IMG/VR virus record: IMGVR_UViG_3300025655_003149
Coordinates: 1 to 25,249 of that record
DNA: 25,249 bases
Origin: a virus
Direction: 5' to 3' (one strand)
A model generated the notes under the pieces. It was not told the origin of the DNA. It did not search any database and worked only from the letters and a program-made list of their open reading frames with translations. The position numbers and the translations under genes are program-made. Shown here in pieces: positions 1,216 through 14,454 of the stretch. Every line of letters starts with the position of its first letter. The stretch's first letter is position 1.

Positions 1216-2178
1216 TTATTTAGATCGGCGTTGGGCGCCTTTATATCCTTTGAAGCTAGTAGTAGGACTTACTTTGTTAACTGCATCCGGTTCGTCGCTT
1301 CCCGGAGGAACATGTTGTCCAAACGGAATACCCATAAAGCCAAATGCTTTTTTAGCCATTTCGTATTCTTCTGGAGTATATGTAACCATCATTGGAGAGT
1401 TGTTAATCCAACTCCACGGATCAATATCTTTTGGGTCTTCTGGCAGTCTAGCAATAATCATGCTAGCACGATACATGTCGTAGTACTTGTCTGCCGTATA
1501 AACTGATCCAGGGTTTGCTTCCCAATAATTAAGTGGCATTTTTCCTACTTTTGCTTCGCTTAGTACTTCTTTAAAATGTTGTTTTGTTTCGCTAACAATA
1601 GAAGCTACTGTTTTAGTTGTTTGATATTTTAAATGCCAATTTCCATTTTCAAATGTTAGTTGGCTTTCACTAACTTCCTTAATACCAGGAAAAGCAGCTA
1701 ATTTTAGATCCTTTGGGATAGTAATAACGTGTTGTTTACTTTTCGGTGCCCATTGATAGTCTAACTCTGGGATTGCTTTAGCGTATAACGCAATCTGGTT
1801 TGATGTAACGCCGGTTCCTTCTTTTTCTAAAATTTGATTTAAAATATGATCCTGAATAATAAGGACTATATCGTTACCGGTTTGGTGTTTGTCCATTACT
1901 TTTGGATTGTGCGAATATTTTAACACGTTAAGTAACGCACGACCCCATTTGCTGTAACGTCCAATGCGGTCAAAATCTACTACCGTTTTACCTTTTGCTT
2001 CGTTGGCAATAGCGTGTTTTAACACTTCGTTTGTAGCAGCATCCATTACAATTGCAATACCGTCTGTTACATCTGTAATCTTGCTTTCAATTACATACTC
2101 GTTGTTAACACTAATAACCACGCTATCACCGATGCGCGGTTTGTTAAAATTAGAAATGTAATCCGTAAGTTTTTTCAT
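1216..2178 (-). CDS. Uncharacterised phage protein, 320 aa
   Basis: I do not recognise the family. Residues 15-50 (RIGDSVVISVNN onward) look like a small beta-barrel: alternating hydrophobics after a GD turn, as in KOW or SH3-like folds. The middle is mixed alpha/beta, and residues 240-300 are rich in Y, W and P. The C-terminus (FKGYKGAQRRSK) is basic. The start ATG overlaps the stop of the preceding gene by one base (TAATG), so translation is probably coupled. It sits in a block of head-associated candidates, and a virion or head-assembly role is possible by position only. Unlike its upstream neighbours it lacks a clear (I/L)xE peptide near the start. Confidence 0.7.
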   Translation of the reverse strand: MKKLTDYISNFNKPRIGDSVVISVNNEYVIESKITDVTDGIAIVMDAATNEVLKHAIANEAKGKTVVDFDRIGRYSKWGRALLNVLKYSHNPKVMDKHQTGNDIVLIIQDHILNQILEKEGTGVTSNQIALYAKAIPELDYQWAPKSKQHVITIPKDLKLAAFPGIKEVSESQLTFENGNWHLKYQTTKTVASIVSETKQHFKEVLSEAKVGKMPLNYWEANPGSVYTADKYYDMYRASMIIARLPEDPKDIDPWSWINNSPMMVTYTPEEYEMAKKAFGFMGIPFGQHVPPGSDEPDAVNKVSPTTSFKGYKGAQRRSK

Positions 2179-2441
2179 TAATCTTCAAACTTATTGAACA
2201 GTTTACGACTACCCATTGTAGCAAACGGCTGTTCATAAATTGACATTACTACCGCTTGATTATCGTATTTTGCTTTCAATTGATCAGCAAAGTGTTGAGC
2301 TTGCCTTTGTATATCTTTATCATCTTTAGCATACATATACATTTCGATAGCAACAAGATAACGTGTCTCATCTGTTGCTTCTGTAATTTCTTCTTTACTT
2401 ACAGATTCTAAATTTTCTAAAATCTTGTAGATAGGATCCAT
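2178..2441 (-). CDS. Small protein with capsid-targeting-like N-terminus, 87 aa
   Basis: An upstream start at 2477 is possible, but ATG at 2441 is preferred. It is preceded by AAGGTG at good spacing and lies five bases after the stop of the upstream gene. The protein begins MDPIYKILENL; the I-L-E at residues 7-9 aligns exactly with the start of the next gene upstream (MENIYTILESL) and fits the (I/L)xE cleavage site of the T4 prohead protease gp21. The rest is mostly helical and ends MGSRKLFNKFED. Family unknown; I infer a possible internal head or scaffold-associated protein from the N-terminus and neighbours. Confidence 0.65.
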   Translation of the reverse strand: MDPIYKILENLESVSKEEITEATDETRYLVAIEMYMYAKDDKDIQRQAQHFADQLKAKYDNQAVVMSIYEQPFATMGSRKLFNKFED

Positions 2442-2445
2442 AAAA

Positions 2446-3897
2446 TTACACCTTTTTATACAGGTCCCATAGACCACGCATTAAGTTTTCTTCATTTACA
2501 GCCATTGGGTTGTCGCCAGGATATTCTTTTTTAAACTGTTGTTTTTGACGATTTAATCCACCTGCTAGTTTGTTAACCATAAAGTCTGTAGACATAGTTT
2601 TTTCGTCTGGCTCATTGGCATATTCTTCTTCGACCTGTTCACCGCATGGTGTTGCAGCAACGATTTTCGCTTCTTGTTCTTTGTACGGCAGGCCTGCTGC
2701 TTTAAGAATAGCTACCAACGTATGTGCATCTTCATCGGTTGCAGTGACATTAACAGTATCTGGCTGATCTGTACCTGCTGTTGTATTAACAGTCAAGGAC
2801 TCATTAAGAGCAGTATTAAATTTATCTTCAAATTCATTCATGGTACTTTCCTTAGGTTTTTCCATGCTTAGTACATTATAGTTTGCGTATAGTGCATTAC
2901 GTGCTGCACGTAAGCCTTCTGCTGTTTTATCAAAACTCTGCACTACTTCGCCGTCAGCATTTTTTAAATGATGTCCAGCGTGATCGCTGAATACAGTTGC
3001 AGCTCCTTCGTGGATTCCTCCAGACTCAGCGCCGTCAATTTTTTCTGCTAATGCATATAGCATTTCCTCTATGCTAGCATCTCCATTGGCATAGTTGGCT
3101 GCAACCTCATCGATTAAACTCATAATATATTCATCTCCGTGAGCCTTAAAAATTTCTGGCATTTTAATATAGGCTTCACGAGCAATTAATTCAACAAGCT
3201 CGTCGTTTGTTTCTTCAGTTATCTCCAATGATTCATCAATGCCCATTAATTGTTCAGGAGTGCCTGCTCTACGAATAACTACGTTTGCTAATCTTTTAAG
3301 ATCATCTGGTTTTGGGATATAATAAGTATATCCTTGTTGCGCTCCTGGCCCCGGGCCATCAATTTCGATAGTATCGTTCTTTTTATCTGCTACACTATCA
3401 TGCCACACTGAACTAACATTCATAATAATTTGCATTAATTCGCCAATGGCGTCACCTGGATAAGCAGATAACCATCGACGACTATTTTGTAGAATATAAT
3501 TAAGTAATTCAATACCAGCAGCGGCATACGGATAATATCCAAATACTTTCATTAAATTAGGTTCCGCACGGGAAAATTTCTTTGGCCATTCAGGTGCTGG
3601 ATCTATAGTAGGCTCTGGTTTAAGTTCTGGTTTAGTTGAAAACTTTTCGATGCATGCGGGATCACCATGACAATCATCGATGCCCTTAGGGTTACTTGAT
3701 TTTGGTCTATATAAGCCCTGACGAACTTCTCTATTCTGACGTTCTAGATCTTCAATATCTTGACTGTAGTCTGAATCCGTGTCGGTATCTTCCTCTGATT
3801 TTTTTGTTAACAACCCTTTTGCTTTTTTAGTTAACTCATCAAATGGTCCTTCGTTGACACGATTTAATGATTCGAGAATAGTATAAATGTTTTCCAT
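2446..3897 (-). CDS. Probable head-associated protein, 483 aa, capsid-targeting-like start
   Basis: The first residues, MENIYTILESLNRVNEGP, contain I-L-E at 7-9, matching the small gene downstream. Residues 20-95 are highly charged and low in complexity (KKSEEDTDTDSD, then proline-rich EPTIDPAPEWP), suggesting a disordered linker. Residues 105-280 look helical and globular. Around residues 300-345 is an alpha/beta stretch (DHAGHHLKNADGEVV), and from about residue 350 the text restarts with MNEFEDKFNTALNESL, which resembles a second protein start, so this may be a fusion or contain an internal start. Initiation is by ATG at 3897 with AGGAA about 15 bases upstream, which is a weak signal. The product is unknown; a prohead-core or internal head role is inferred from the leader peptide and neighbours. 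Confidence 0.65.
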   Translation of the reverse strand: MENIYTILESLNRVNEGPFDELTKKAKGLLTKKSEEDTDTDSDYSQDIEDLERQNREVRQGLYRPKSSNPKGIDDCHGDPACIEKFSTKPELKPEPTIDPAPEWPKKFSRAEPNLMKVFGYYPYAAAGIELLNYILQNSRRWLSAYPGDAIGELMQIIMNVSSVWHDSVADKKNDTIEIDGPGPGAQQGYTYYIPKPDDLKRLANVVIRRAGTPEQLMGIDESLEITEETNDELVELIAREAYIKMPEIFKAHGDEYIMSLIDEVAANYANGDASIEEMLYALAEKIDGAESGGIHEGAATVFSDHAGHHLKNADGEVVQSFDKTAEGLRAARNALYANYNVLSMEKPKESTMNEFEDKFNTALNESLTVNTTAGTDQPDTVNVTATDEDAHTLVAILKAAGLPYKEQEAKIVAATPCGEQVEEEYANEPDEKTMSTDFMVNKLAGGLNRQKQQFKKEYPGDNPMAVNEENLMRGLWDLYKKV

Positions 3898-3903
3898 TTT
3901 CTA

Positions 3904-4458
3904 TTAGTTTCCTACTGGGCTTTTTGAGTTGTCTTTTGCATCAGTATTGAATGTTGCCTTAGGAGTCTTTCCGCCAGCAATTTCATACTCGCGAGTTTCC
4001 ATATCCTTAACTACATTTTGGAAACTACTACCATATGCTTCCGAAGCATCTTTTTGTTCTTTAGTTTGTTCAGGAAGTGCTTGATCATCTAGCAACGCAC
4101 CTTCGTGCTCTTTTGCAGTATGTTCTGCATCAACCGAGTCTAAAAATCTTCTATCTAAAATCTTTAATCGATTAATATCACATCCCTTTGATGCTGCTAA
4201 TTCTGTGATTTGTGACACAGATGCAGGATATTCTAATACCACATCCATTGAACTTACAGATTCGTTTTCGAAATCCGGAAAATCGTAAGGGCATTTCATC
4301 ACAGGACTAGTTTTAATAGCACCAATTGATTCTGGATTGAATTTAGCAAGAATATTCTTTAGGATATCTTGCTTTTCTTTTGTAAAGTCACCTACATATT
4401 TAATGCGGTATTCATATGATTTTTTAGATTCTGTTAAAAATTCTTTAAGCGAGCGCAT
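3904..4458 (-). CDS. Probable internal head protein with capsid-targeting-like N-terminus, 184 aa
   Basis: The protein starts MRSLKEFLTESKK, close in pattern to the targeting peptide of T4 internal proteins (MKTYQEFIAE). L-T-E at 8-10 would be a gp21 cut site. Residues 14-75 (YEYRIKYVGDFTKEKQD onward) form an alpha/beta region seen in marine T4-like phages, and the C-terminal third is polar and probably flexible. A perfect TATAAATA late promoter lies 23 bases upstream, and an AGGAG Shine-Dalgarno precedes the ATG. That Shine-Dalgarno sits inside an 8-bp perfect palindrome. Likely expressed late and packaged in the capsid. The exact function is not known. Confidence 0.7.
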   Translation of the reverse strand: MRSLKEFLTESKKSYEYRIKYVGDFTKEKQDILKNILAKFNPESIGAIKTSPVMKCPYDFPDFENESVSSMDVVLEYPASVSQITELAASKGCDINRLKILDRRFLDSVDAEHTAKEHEGALLDDQALPEQTKEQKDASEAYGSSFQNVVKDMETREYEIAGGKTPKATFNTDAKDNSKSPVGN

Positions 4459-4480: not shown

Positions 4481-4488
4481 TATTTATA
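4481..4488 (-). promoter_or_regulatory. T4-type late promoter, exact TATAAATA
   Basis: The minus strand reads TATAAATA, the T4 late consensus recognised by the gp55-type sigma. It is 23 bases before the ATG of the 184-residue head-protein candidate and overlaps the stop codon of the gp16-like gene. This promoter spacing recurs at the other virion genes. Confidence 0.7.
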
Positions 4489-4966
4489 CGTCTTTGTCTT
4501 TATTTGGATTCAGCAACTTATCTAATAGTTCGTTACGATCTAAAACATGGCCAGACGCAGTAGTTCCGGTTTCGTCGCCGCGGTCCATGTCCAATTTTGC
4601 TTTGCGAAGTTGCAACTCAATCATTTTAAGTTTCTTATTCATCTTAGCATTCTTGGCAGTTATAGCGTGGCCTAATAACGAACTTGCTACTGAAAAAATT
4701 TCCGACGAAAACCGGGCTTCAACATTCATTCCAAGATCAACTAATTCTTTATATGTATCTGTTGCCATTTTTGCAAGTTCGTCCATTTCTGAATCAGATG
4801 CCTCAAGGCCGCGAACTGCCGGGAGCGCCTGATTAATCTTGTCAAGATTATCAAGCCCCTCAAGTGTAGCCGGAACTCGCGGTTCTTCGTCGGGTTCGTC
4901 AGAAACCATTGGTTCGTCTATATCGGATGTAGGTAAATCAAAAAGTTCTTCAAGTTTTTTAGTCAT
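4484..4966 (-). CDS. Probable small terminase subunit (gp16-like)
   Basis: The 160-residue protein has an acidic, disordered N-terminal third (PMVSDEPDEEPRVP). A helical core at about 55-130 includes YKELVDLGMNVEARFSSEIF and then AKMNKKLKMIELQLRKAKLD, and a short C-terminal motif LDRNELLDKLL ends it. Length, acidic start, paired helices and the closing helix match the layout of T4 gp16, the oligomeric DNA-recognition subunit of the packaging motor. This is a judgement on pattern, not a clear motif. gp17 is not in the window, so the usual gp16-gp17 pairing is broken here. No Shine-Dalgarno precedes the ATG; instead AATAAATA ends five bases before it. Confidence 0.55.
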   Translation of the reverse strand: MTKKLEELFDLPTSDIDEPMVSDEPDEEPRVPATLEGLDNLDKINQALPAVRGLEASDSEMDELAKMATDTYKELVDLGMNVEARFSSEIFSVASSLLGHAITAKNAKMNKKLKMIELQLRKAKLDMDRGDETGTTASGHVLDRNELLDKLLNPNKDKDV

Positions 4967-4971
4967 AATGA

Positions 4972-4979
4972 TATTTATT
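4972..4979 (-). promoter_or_regulatory. Late-promoter-like AATAAATA abutting the gp16-like start
   Basis: The minus strand reads AATAAATA with only five bases (TCATT) before the ATG at 4966. If used at T4 late spacing, transcription would begin at or next to the start codon, giving a leaderless message. The motif overlaps the stop codon of the SGNH gene and could be coincidental. Confidence 0.4.
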
Positions 4980-5907
4980 ACCGAGATTTACCCAGGCGAA
5001 CTGTTCTTTTTGATTGTGGATTAAACGAAAATACATTTTGACTTTTAACAATATCATCCCAGTACATTGCGTATTCTTTTTGTTCGTTTGAAATTTCTAC
5101 AAAGTGTTGTAAGTATTCAAGATGTCCTAACGGGGTAGGGTGCGTATCTGTTATTAATTTTTTAGATGTATCTGAACGCTTAATATTATCCCTCCACTCT
5201 AAAAATTTTAGGTCTGTAAGTTCTTGTTTTATATTAATATCAATCGTACAATTATTGTTAAAAAAATCATCAAAATCAGGCCAGTCCGGCCCTGCACACT
5301 CATGGTATACTTCTGCTAAATGTTGTTTCTTATACTGGGCTTCTGTTGCTTTAGATCTTACTACATTAATATCTGGCCTAGAATTCCAATCTTCCTTGTA
5401 AACTATCTCAAATACACTAGGACTAACTAGTTCAATTGTTTCTCGATACAAGGTATTAATATCTGACATTTCTGGCTCATTACTAACGATCGGGGACATA
5501 GAATAAAATTTATATCTACATCCGATTCCGTCTAAGATTTTTCTAACAGCTTCGATTAATGATATAGTAATTAACGTATATCCTTTAGTGTCTGACGTTT
5601 GTTTTCTGTCATTAAACCAATCATTATTAATGAAACTTACACTTTTTTCCAATGCTCCTCTGTTATGAACCCAATCATCATCTTTAAATCCAGTTTCTCT
5701 ATTAATTGCTGACCACATAATCTCAACGGTGTCTGAATCATTTATATTATTTCTCTGAATACACTCAATTAAAGAATATAATATATGCTGGTTTCCGGCA
5801 GATTGCGCACCCCAATTTTGAAATTCGTCGAAATCAAGGCTGCGTATATCAGCCCACGTTGGCCAATGGTAATTTGTAAAACTGCACCCAAAAGAAAAGA
5901 AACGCAT
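4978..5907 (-). CDS. SGNH/GDSL-hydrolase-like cargo protein
   Basis: The 309-residue protein begins with a beta-strand and FGCSFT (residues 6-11), where S9 would be the block I nucleophile. NWGAQSAGN at about 31-39 fits block II, WSAINR fits the block III region, and the C-terminal DTHPTPLGH (D254, H256) supplies the block V Asp and His. These are the catalytic elements of SGNH esterases and lipases, which act on esters such as acyl groups on sugars. There is no signal peptide. It is inserted between head-completion gp4 and the gp16-like gene, is visibly richer in A+T than its neighbours and lacks a Shine-Dalgarno. I infer auxiliary cargo, possibly for host-surface or virion glycan editing. 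The substrate is unknown. Confidence 0.75.
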   Translation of the reverse strand: MRFFSFGCSFTNYHWPTWADIRSLDFDEFQNWGAQSAGNQHILYSLIECIQRNNINDSDTVEIMWSAINRETGFKDDDWVHNRGALEKSVSFINNDWFNDRKQTSDTKGYTLITISLIEAVRKILDGIGCRYKFYSMSPIVSNEPEMSDINTLYRETIELVSPSVFEIVYKEDWNSRPDINVVRSKATEAQYKKQHLAEVYHECAGPDWPDFDDFFNNNCTIDINIKQELTDLKFLEWRDNIKRSDTSKKLITDTHPTPLGHLEYLQHFVEISNEQKEYAMYWDDIVKSQNVFSFNPQSKRTVRLGKSR

Positions 5908-5930: not shown

Positions 5931-6362
5931 TTACTTACGAAAGATTTGATCTTCTGTAATAACTCTAAATACAAGTCCTTGGCGTTTGCACCAAGCCTGA
6001 GCTGCTTCCCATTTAGCATAATTGACTGCAACTGTAGCACGTTGCTGCGGATTTTGTTTTTCAGTAAGCATTGATTGTCCTTTAGGCTTAATTTCAATAA
6101 CTTCTGCAACTTGTTTATTATTTTTAGTTCTATAGACAACAAAAAAATCCGGTACGTAAATAGTTTGTTTTCCTGTTAGCGGATGTCTATAGGGTATAGA
6201 AATACTTTCGCTTGCCCATTGTAGAATGTGTTCATTATTATCGCAGAAATTCATAAATGCTAATTCCCACGAACTTCTATATCTAGGAGTTCCTTTACCA
6301 ACATACTTGTTGGTGTTACGGATATGGTAAGGTCCTTGAGAAAAATTTGTCTTTCTTGGCAT
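5931..6362 (-). CDS. 4: Head completion protein gp4-like (nuclease fold)
   Basis: The 143-residue protein matches T4 gp4 (gp50) in length and in motifs: YVGKGTPRYRSSWE (residues 20-33), PDFFV (71-75), and EIKPK (90-94). E33, D72, E90 and K92 fit the TnsA-like PD-(D/E)xK nuclease active site. The C-terminus (WEAAQAWCKRQGLVFRVITED) also matches the family. In T4 the protein finishes DNA-filled heads before tail joining. The ATG directly abuts the stop of the 117-residue gene upstream. Confidence 0.9.
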   Translation of the reverse strand: MPRKTNFSQGPYHIRNTNKYVGKGTPRYRSSWELAFMNFCDNNEHILQWASESISIPYRHPLTGKQTIYVPDFFVVYRTKNNKQVAEVIEIKPKGQSMLTEKQNPQQRATVAVNYAKWEAAQAWCKRQGLVFRVITEDQIFRK

Positions 6363-12033: not shown

Positions 12034-12066
12034 ATTGATTTCCTCATTAATAAATGTTGTTATATC

Positions 12067-12074
12067 TATTTATT
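12067..12074 (-). promoter_or_regulatory. Late promoter AATAAATA for gp18
   Basis: The minus strand reads AATAAATA 34 bases upstream of the gp18 start, with GAGG between. It is nearly back to back with a weaker TATAAATC on the plus strand at 12083-12090. Confidence 0.6.
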
Positions 12075-12082
12075 AGTTTCAC

Positions 12083-12090
12083 TATAAATC
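12083..12090 (+). promoter_or_regulatory. Possible late promoter TATAAATC for the zinc-ribbon gene
   Basis: TATAAATC differs from the T4 late consensus by one base and lies 45 bases before the ATG at 12135. It would be divergent to the gp18 promoter. Confidence 0.35.
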
Positions 12091-12134
12091 AGCTGATTAT
12101 CAGACCTTGGCAAAGGCCTTATATAAGTAAATAT

Positions 12135-12482
12135 ATGGAAAGACCACTATGTTCGGTGTGCGAAAAGCAACCTTGCGCTGTAAATTATGTCAAAAACGGT
12201 ATAACCCACTATCGTTCGCGCTGTAACCAATGTAACGGCTTAAATAGAAGGAAAAAACCTTACGTTCCAAGGTGGAAGCAAAAGGGTTATAAACAAAAAG
12301 CTACCTGCGATCGTTGCGGATTTCGTGCAAAATATCCATCTCAGATTGTTGTTTTTCACATCAACGGAGACTTAAATGACGCTACTATCACAAACCTGCG
12401 TAGTATTTGTTTAAATTGTGTTGTTGAAATAGACAAGCAAGAACTGCCGTGGAAGCAAGGTGATTTAATTAGAGACTTCTAA
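12135..12482 (+). CDS. Double zinc-ribbon, HNH-like small protein, 115 aa
   Basis: ATG at 12135 is chosen because upstream residues in the frame look like promoter DNA. Two zinc sites are visible: C6/C9 with C30/C33, and C58/C61 with C92/C95. The second holds an HNH-type core (FHINGDLNDATITNL, H75, N77, N87), but the final His of HNH nucleases is replaced (LNCVV) and the paired His before H75 is Phe. It may therefore be a non-catalytic relative that binds nucleic acid. Similar proteins occur in marine T4-like phages. It lies divergent to gp18 and its 3' end overlaps the minus-strand small membrane gene by 14 bases. No strong Shine-Dalgarno. Confidence 0.7.
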   Translation: MERPLCSVCEKQPCAVNYVKNGITHYRSRCNQCNGLNRRKKPYVPRWKQKGYKQKATCDRCGFRAKYPSQIVVFHINGDLNDATITNLRSICLNCVVEIDKQELPWKQGDLIRDF

Positions 12483-13118: not shown

Positions 13119-13147
13119 ATTATAGTAGAAGGTTACGGAGTTGTCAA
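13119..13147 (-). promoter_or_regulatory. Consensus sigma-70 promoter for the exonuclease
   Basis: The minus strand carries TTGACA (13142-13147), a 17-base spacer, and TATAAT (13119-13124), all matching consensus. The expected start falls at about 13112, the A of the exonuclease ATG. It overlaps the 3' end of the preceding radical SAM gene (stop at 13133-13135). Confidence 0.85.
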
Positions 13148-14164
13148 CGGTAATTTTAATATTTTAGGTTTAACATTATCTGCGTGAATTAGTACTGTTT
13201 TTAAATCCTCTTTTGCGGGACACAATTTACATTGTGGAATAGCATTTTCTAAATTATCAATAAACTGTTTAATGTTATTGATATCCATACCAACTGTTGC
13301 AGGGGCGTAATTTTTTAATAACTGTGTATCTGACTTGGATAGATTTACTTGATACTGCTCCATAAATTCTAGAAGTAAAGGCACATGATGACACTTGTAC
13401 AATTTTCCACGAATAAAATGATGGCAGGTTTTTGATATACAAACATCGTGAGCTGCGTTTAGATCGTTATTATAAACTTGAAATTGATTATTCCCGGCAT
13501 ATTTTAGTGGCGCAGTAATAAACTGATTGTCATGTTGAAACCTAACTTTTACTCCATTACTATCAGTAAACAACGGCTGTGGGGAAATATTATGCACGCT
13601 TATACATTCATTTCTAATATTGTCTGGTAAATTAATAAAATCTTCAAACGTTTTACATTCTGGCCAATGCTCACCTTTAACTATATTGTACTCCTTGTCC
13701 CATGATTCTTCGCCGTTATACTCAACGTGATTTATTGTTCCTTTAAAAAACGTAGTTTTAGGATTGTCTAACATTTCTTCAACAACATTAGCTAACTCAA
13801 TTGTTCTAGAAATATTATGTGTAGATACAATTACATCAATTTTATATTTGTGCAAGACTTCATATAACCACGGCGTATGGACTAATCTAGATCCATTGGT
13901 AATTAACTCAATTGGAGTATCTGGCCATAATTCTCGTATGCCTATTAACCAATTTTTTAAATCTGGATTTAAAGTTGGTTCGCCACCAATAACAGCAATG
14001 TAATTAATATCAATGAGCGTACTCCATTGTGAATAGATGTCTTTCAGCTCACTCCATTTTTGATGTCCAGAAAACCTATAATTGTTCAATCTATTACATT
14101 GGTCGCAATTAAAATTACAGACGTTGGTTATGTAGAATTCAACGTATCCGAGGGTTACTTTCAT
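13133..14164 (-). CDS. Radical SAM enzyme with C-terminal SPASM-like cysteines
   Basis: The 343-residue protein has CxxxCxxC at C16, C20 and C23 (NVCNFNCDQC), GGEPTLNP at 60-67, and later strands typical of the partial TIM barrel (IELITNGS, DVIVSTHN). C-terminal cysteines C242, C247, C258, C312 and C315 could bind an auxiliary cluster as in SPASM/twitch enzymes. The substrate is unknown. It follows the basic targeting-peptide protein by 11 bases and has no visible Shine-Dalgarno. The coding strand is AT-rich compared with gp13. It differs in domain order from the radical SAM gene at 74-1207, so the two are not recent duplicates. Confidence 0.88.
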   Translation of the reverse strand: MKVTLGYVEFYITNVCNFNCDQCNRLNNYRFSGHQKWSELKDIYSQWSTLIDINYIAVIGGEPTLNPDLKNWLIGIRELWPDTPIELITNGSRLVHTPWLYEVLHKYKIDVIVSTHNISRTIELANVVEEMLDNPKTTFFKGTINHVEYNGEESWDKEYNIVKGEHWPECKTFEDFINLPDNIRNECISVHNISPQPLFTDSNGVKVRFQHDNQFITAPLKYAGNNQFQVYNNDLNAAHDVCISKTCHHFIRGKLYKCHHVPLLLEFMEQYQVNLSKSDTQLLKNYAPATVGMDINNIKQFIDNLENAIPQCKLCPAKEDLKTVLIHADNVKPKILKLPLTTP

Positions 14165-14175
14165 GATAAATGTAA

Positions 14176-14454
14176 TTATGTTTTACGTTGTTTGTTTAAT
14201 CTAGTTAACAGTCTACTAGCAACACTAGTTTTTTTAGTTTTTTTGGCTCGGACCTTTTGAAATGCTGGAGTTTTGGCACGTGTTCTACGCATCTGTTCCC
14301 TGCGTTTAGTGTCAATTGATTTTCCACAGTCGCTTGCGTTAGGCACAATTCGACCTTTGCGAATGCCATGTGTGCAACGCCATTTAAGTTTTGGTTTGTT
14401 ACTGGTTCGACTCCAAACCATTTCGTGTTCTGGAATGAACTCGCTTGCTCGCAT
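14176..14454 (-). CDS. Very basic small protein with capsid-targeting-like N-terminus, 92 aa
   Basis: The start at 14454 is chosen over 14469 because it forms a TAATG overlap with the gp13 stop and gives MRASEFIPEHE, a start common among marine T4-like phage proteins. I-P-E at 7-9 fits the gp21 cut site. The rest contains two cysteines (WRCTHG and ASDCGK) and a strongly basic C-terminal half (RREQMRRTRAK, VRAKKTKKTSV, ending NKQRKT), like a DNA-binding internal protein. I infer packaging into the head with the genome. It directly precedes a radical SAM gene, but no link is shown. Confidence 0.7.
   Translation of the reverse strand: MRASEFIPEHEMVWSRTSNKPKLKWRCTHGIRKGRIVPNASDCGKSIDTKRREQMRRTRAKTPAFQKVRAKKTKKTSVASRLLTRLNKQRKT

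Follow-up and report, generated by a model that had tools for sequence, protein, structure and literature searches.

Candidate T4-type capsid targeting sequences on putative internal head proteins of a RaK2/PA5oct-like jumbo phage

Introduction

The internal head proteins of phage T4, i.e., IPII and IPIII as well as IPI and Alt, carry a ten-residue leader with hydrophobic residues at positions 4 and 7 and an (I/L)xE motif at positions 8 to 10, and the same kind of leader (e.g., MKTYQEFIAE) is found on unrelated protein bodies. Mutagenesis of this leader assigned packaging to residues 4 and 7 and processing to residues 8 and 10, with an aspartate at position 10 blocking processing but not packaging (PMC9026906). 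Short leaders ending in LxE also occur on T4 gp24 (MAKINELLRE|S) and gp67/gp22. Giant phages like phiKZ and SPN3US (gp175/gp245) likewise process internal proteins in a Glu-directed manner with a gp21-related protease, using (S/A/G)xE or AxE sites and mostly long propeptides (PMC5694885). For the majority of proteins in jumbo-phage virions, neither the function nor the location within the particle is known. Here we analyze a 25.2 kb viral contig of IMG/VR (record IMGVR_UViG_3300025655_003149, positions 1 to 25,249; hereafter "the window"), in which five genes that we call D, C, B, A, and R begin with short leaders reminiscent of those of T4.

Judged by its tail sheath, which is about 42–47% identical to those of PA5oct and Atu_ph07 over the aligned parts and related to those of SCTP-2, Vibrio phage 2.275.O, and RaK2-type Klebsiella phages, the window is a fragment of a RaK2/PA5oct-like jumbo myovirus from a group of the T4 superfamily. 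Its genes and those of its relatives share with the T4 internal proteins the layout of the leader, its use on unrelated bodies, and the presence of a gp21-type protease in the phage group. The leaders themselves read MRSLxEFLTE, MKTLxDYLTE, MRAREFITE, or MxxIYxILE compared to MKTYQEFIAE in T4, and they differ from the phiKZ/SPN3US type in being short and ending in (I/L)xE. Unlike in T4, the genes follow gp4 and a gene that we call E in an operon of structural genes, their bodies are unrelated to those of the T4 proteins, and one of them carries the site internally. In the literature that we searched, no leader function was found described for PHROG 14802, the family to which gene D belongs, or for RaK2-like phages. 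We consider it likely that the leaders of D, A, and R are T4-type capsid targeting sequences within a scheme of targeting and cutting, with those of B and C probably representing a shorter version.

A T4-like leader on gene D

A preliminary description of the window had reported three consecutive products starting at 4458, 3897, and 2441 (genes D, C, and B). All three exist with exactly the N-termini quoted there, MRSLKEFLTES, MENIYTILESL, and MDPIYKILENL (beginning MRSLKEFLTESK, MENIYTILESLN, and MDPIYKILENLE), and are encoded on the minus strand, which had been left unstated. These starts are plausible because upstream sites are present (AGGAG at D, TAGGAA at C, and AAGG at B) and the genes are densely packed. 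The proposal that they might be internal head proteins is borne out strongly for D and only moderately for B and C.

Gene D (3904..4458, minus strand) encodes a putative internal head protein of 184 amino acids whose first ten residues (4429..4458) form a candidate capsid targeting sequence with a predicted cut after Glu10 (LTE|S). The reported resemblance to T4 leaders proved to be a residue-for-residue alignment with MKTYQEFIAE of ipII and ipIII (MKTYQEFIAEA in the T4 record). The same record has the FLTE of the D leader also at the site SFLTE65|AEIGG of the capsid protein gp23, which we take to be cut after Glu65.

Comparison of the window with 48 distinct environmental N-termini of D homologues (n = 49) revealed that Leu8 and Glu10 are invariant, while position 4 is leucine in 45 and phenylalanine in four and position 7 is tyrosine in 40 and phenylalanine in nine. 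Residues T, I, A, and F are found at position 9, and a serine is common at position 11. The set was collected with two search patterns and is biased because one of them overlapped the leader; in the subset matched by the pattern outside the leader, both L8 and E10 are present in 13/13 cases. An alignment of 30 sequences reaching down to 25% identity retained eight invariant columns, including M1, L8, and E10. Conservation of the motif within the first residues, proposed earlier as a check, is near-total in D.

The protein matches PHROG 14802, "virion structural protein" (E=1e-5), whose members in RaK2 (ORF047), 121Q (gp557), and PA5oct (gp282) occupy the same place after gp4 and E; Glu10 varies among these isolates. 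The RaK2 and 121Q homologues are annotated as structural proteins and gp282 of PA5oct is marked as detected in the virion by electrospray ionization tandem mass spectrometry. Apart from a weak match of only the first 36 residues to PHROG 2667, "internal head protein" (E=0.089), the D body has no detected homology to the mature parts of T4 IPI, IPII, or IPIII. An AlphaFold model of D (mean pLDDT 70) consists of a low-confidence helix at residues 4–10, a short linker, a ferredoxin/S6-like domain that begins at residue 15, and a tail that is helical and in part disordered. This arrangement places the predicted cut between leader and folded domain. The fold itself was of no use for assigning a function, with matches only to ribosomal S6/ferredoxin-like folds and uncharacterized viral proteins. 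At the level of sequence, D fits everything expected of a T4-type capsid targeting sequence except for a universal Glu10, and the case for reading its leader this way is convincing.

Genes A and R and the reuse of the leader

Two further genes of the window that the preliminary description had not included begin in the same way. Gene A (1216..2178, minus strand, 320 amino acids) is composed of the leader MKKLTDYISN, an N-terminal domain, and a C-terminal domain, and its body is unrelated to that of D. The targeting residues of the leader are retained and Glu10 is lost (ISN), as is mostly the case in the clade of the window, with INE at locus L006 and LTE in other contigs. Starts of the same type found elsewhere read MKTLRDYLTES, MKTLLDYLTEA, MKTLKDYLTEA, or MRSLKDYLTEA.

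The C-terminal third of A shares 52% identity (E=2e-31) with a stand-alone protein, M_L138, that begins with a leader of its own (MRAKEFITEN...). At the junction of the two parts lies L206-S207-E208|A209 (1555..1563, minus strand), and this [LI]xE|[AT] motif, in which the middle residue varies, is present in 7/7 A homologues of the window's clade. It aligns onto the leader of the stand-alone homologues, with E208 invariant in 11/11 sequences. In the simplest interpretation, the tag survived the fusion in A as a predicted cleavage site. No direct homologues of A or of the M-type protein were found in cultured phages using tblastn, and a structure model of A (mean pLDDT 51) was too poor for use.

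Gene R (14176..14454, minus strand) overlaps the stop of the preceding gene with its start and encodes a basic protein with the leader MRASEFIPE, which reads MRAREFITE on homologues in other contigs. A scan of the collection for MRA[RS]EFITE found it in at least 120 stretches. Among the loci fetched, 75 distinct bodies with this start fall into at least 10 clusters without detectable mutual similarity, one of them being the family of gene R. In two others, MRASEFITE stands before a body with a domain of the SLT transglycosylase type (Pfam E=1e-18) and before a protein that is kinase-like by eye only (loci L267, minus strand, and L291, plus strand from 11485). Among the matches listed, the tag has 82 copies encoded by 71 different DNA strings that vary at synonymous positions, which argues that selection acts on the peptide.

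Genes B and C

The leaders of B and C align as had been reported, with I7-L8-E9 in common, and share the form M-x-x-I-Y-x-I-L-E on unrelated bodies. Gene C (2446..3897, minus strand, 483 amino acids) encodes a large, variable protein that follows D in the operon of relatives and is a candidate internal head or core protein; its leader MENIYTILE (residues 1–9, 3871..3897) is followed further on by a second candidate site, VNE16|GP. Close homologues of C retain Y-x-[IL]-x-E in a leader shifted in length by one residue, and distant ones often have [IL]xE before a glycine some residues later. No cultured-phage homologue of C was found with tblastn.

Gene B (2178..2441, minus strand, 87 amino acids) starts with MDPIYKILE (residues 1–9, 2415..2441); the ORF finder had placed the start at a GTG at 2477, where the site upstream is poorer than at 2441. 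Checking homologues gave a divided answer for B, with the same leader in 3/7 (L003, L006, L007) and a different N-terminus in 4/7 (L010, L012, L014, L015, with MTEADILKRYQDI..YMLTENPYNVVEGY). The alternative start of these four, MTEADILKRYQDIVSRDYMLTENPYNVVEGY, stands in place of the IYxILE leader and contains LTE|N.

Genes located between portal and protease in related phages have similar starts, i.e., MKINDIITEG in PA5oct, MLFKDIFES in RaK2, and MKLVELFEA in Vibrio phage 2.275.O. The T4 core protein gp67 occupies this same interval. Both these leaders and those of B and C resemble the short LxE-ending leaders of T4 gp24 and gp67/gp22, and no similarity of B or C to these three proteins was detected. 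It is quite possible that B and C are core or internal proteins, and their leaders are probably a shorter version of the T4-type sequence. Evidence for them is weaker than for D, A, and R, and we treat their ILE sites as predicted rather than established.

Protease and capsid protein of the phage group

A gp21-type protease, the presence of which the preliminary description had suggested looking for, is found in relatives of the window. Peptidase_S77 was detected in the five isolates PA5oct, RaK2, Atu_ph07, 2.275.O, and SCTP-2, in 4/5 large D-carrying contigs (G002 to G005, with none in the 86 kb G006), and in 3/3 contigs picked for their capsid gene. Among contigs with MRA[RS]EFITE, it is present in 6/6 of those longer than 180 kb and in 3/8 shorter ones. 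The 213 kb contig G001, which is the closest large relative of the window and whose D is 55% identical, has the capsid gene at its start, and in PA5oct the capsid gene lies two genes past the protease.

The major capsid protein has L-x-E before [NSAT][AS] in 75/75 N-termini of relatives. The site is free in its middle residue, shows small indels around it, and lies directly ahead of the conserved shell domain; RaK2 has LFE|S and Vibrio LME|S. From this site, we infer that the S77 protease is probably specific for LxE. A second PA5oct gene with the annotation "head maturation protease" (NC_071039.1, 180349-181020, L120) lies far from the head module, and its product was detected by mass spectrometry.

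A proposed scheme of targeting and cutting

By analogy to T4, the hydrophobic residues near positions 4 and 7 would bind the growing scaffold core so that the protein is built into the prohead, where the S77 protease would then cut after (I/L)xE. The freed protein would stay with the DNA and perhaps be ejected with it. Copies without Glu10, i.e., A of the window and D of RaK2, XaC1, and PA5oct, would be targeted and remain unprocessed at that site, with A cut instead at its internal LSE208|A to release the C-terminal domain. The tagged proteins are probably packed in the head, while core binding, cutting, and ejection are steps inferred from the T4 precedent.

Under such a scheme, the range of the T4 targeting peptide would reach into a remote group of phages, and particular copies are predicted to be targeted yet uncut. 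If the tag marks internal head proteins, it would provide a list of carried and perhaps ejected proteins from sequence, uncultured phages included, and the fusion in gene A would constitute a natural test for the protease, and not the scaffold alone, reading the motif. A broader version of this idea, for which we see about an even chance, is that aquatic jumbo phages widely use a portable T4-type tag to load many unrelated proteins into the head, including the SLT transglycosylase, the kinase-like protein, and small basic proteins, and that A is a pro-protein formed by fusion, from which the head protease frees the second domain at a tag turned internal.

Several observations weigh against targeting and cutting as proposed here. 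Homologues without the motif, which the preliminary description had named as a refutation, do exist for D in RaK2 (LTD, Asp10), XaC1 (LTA, Ala10), and PA5oct (YDA, Ala10), so that cleavage is not universal; all three retain hydrophobic residues at positions 4 and 7, and LTE is found in 121Q (MNRLQQILTE|KKPVYEYR), Atu_ph07, and Vibrio 2.275.O. The three exceptions fit the T4 mutagenesis, in which Asp10 separates packaging from processing. Distant C homologues do not have ILE at positions 7–9. No S77 protease was found in the window or in G001, both of which are fragments without the protease region. The loose [IL]xE motif fails to separate PA5oct proteins detected by mass spectrometry (13/91) from the rest (36/398), a test that is not decisive because this motif is common by chance. 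A strict regular expression built from the T4 and D leaders had no match in G002, yet D and A start there with MKTLAQYLTES and MMKTLRDYLTES.

Hydrophobic-x-Glu strings are indeed common at protein starts, with [IL]xE ending in a glutamate at positions 8–11 in 53/871 proteins (6.1%) of the phage group, and together with the PA5oct result this could suggest that the leaders arose by chance. The probability of the motif in three given consecutive genes is nevertheless only about 2e-4, and in the window it is found in 4/26 genes compared to 3/132 internal methionines. The fixed strict expression, applied to four large contigs, matched 18/773 protein starts and 2/3869 internal methionines, a 46-fold enrichment by odds ratio with a p of 1e-12 that is optimistic given paralogues among the matches. 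Chance is refuted for D by its near-total conservation, still a possibility for B and C taken alone, and very improbable overall. We give hardly any credence to the shared starts being a signal in the RNA for translation start or late-gene control, because several codons are used for L8 and E10 of D and synonymous variation pervades the many DNA strings encoding MRA[RS]EFITE, although their second codon is strongly biased (AGA in 67/82).

A more serious alternative, which we nonetheless regard as unlikely, treats the leaders as permanent helices that dock onto portal, core, or terminase and stay uncut throughout, with (I/L)xE as part of an amphipathic helix. The helix pattern persists in the three isolates without Glu10 in D, the D model has its short helix at this very place, and many head proteins of phiKZ-type jumbo phages are uncut (PMC5694885). 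A helix alone, however, would not demand that after Met1 only Leu8 and Glu10 of the leader are fully invariant with position 9 free, nor would it account for the motif persisting inside gene A and for the same LxE in the capsid protein of relatives. Somewhat more credible, though still short of what we would expect to hold, is that B and C share their leader merely through recent local duplication or recombination, with ILE being no processing site and only D together with relatives of A and R being targeted. Near-identical leaders on adjacent, unrelated bodies, the other N-terminus of four B homologues, and the distant C homologues would all agree with such an event. Yet leader swapping among unrelated bodies is just what targeting tags do, close C homologues conserve [IL]xE despite their changed leader length, and the portal-protease genes of PA5oct, RaK2, and Vibrio have similar starts.

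Gene neighborhood and further observations

The leader genes D, C, B, and A lie on the minus strand downstream of the sheath, tube, and gp4 genes. Their syntenic anchor is a gp4-type head completion protein (5931..6362, minus strand; PHROG 218, head closure, E=2e-40), and D is preceded in the window and in the relatives seen by gene E (4484..4966, minus strand; MTKKLEELFDLP...), a candidate terminase small subunit by position only that matches PHROG 16202 of unknown function (E=5e-13). The order in relatives is gp4, E, D, C, A, and a gene that starts with MRAREFITE; in several relatives, the large terminase gene comes next. Our best reading is that these genes form an internal-head-protein operon between terminase genes, with the T4-like tags as a putative loading signal.

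Matches to the strict expression cluster in this operon and in a second region of G001 at 170–190 kb. Around the capsid gene of other contigs, it matched 0/1064 proteins, which indicates that the tags are not generally close to that gene. Within 180–186 kb of G001 (L036) lie four tandem paralogues that are related to the PA5oct virion protein gp279 and have starts like MRA[RKN][ED][FL]I[LVF]EYKRD, which suggests repeated duplication of a tagged protein.

Two genes with radical-SAM domains (74-1207 and 13133-14164, both minus strand) flank the structural module, and the former is kept beside gene A in relatives. The gene at 4978-5907 (minus strand) encodes a protein of no clear family that starts with MRFFSFGCSFTNYHWPTWADI, and a similar start, MYKRFFAFGCSFTNYWYPTWADII, is found downstream of D in L187. 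On the opposite strand, an HNH endonuclease gene (12054-12482, plus strand) adjoins the tail sheath gene as a possible homing element.

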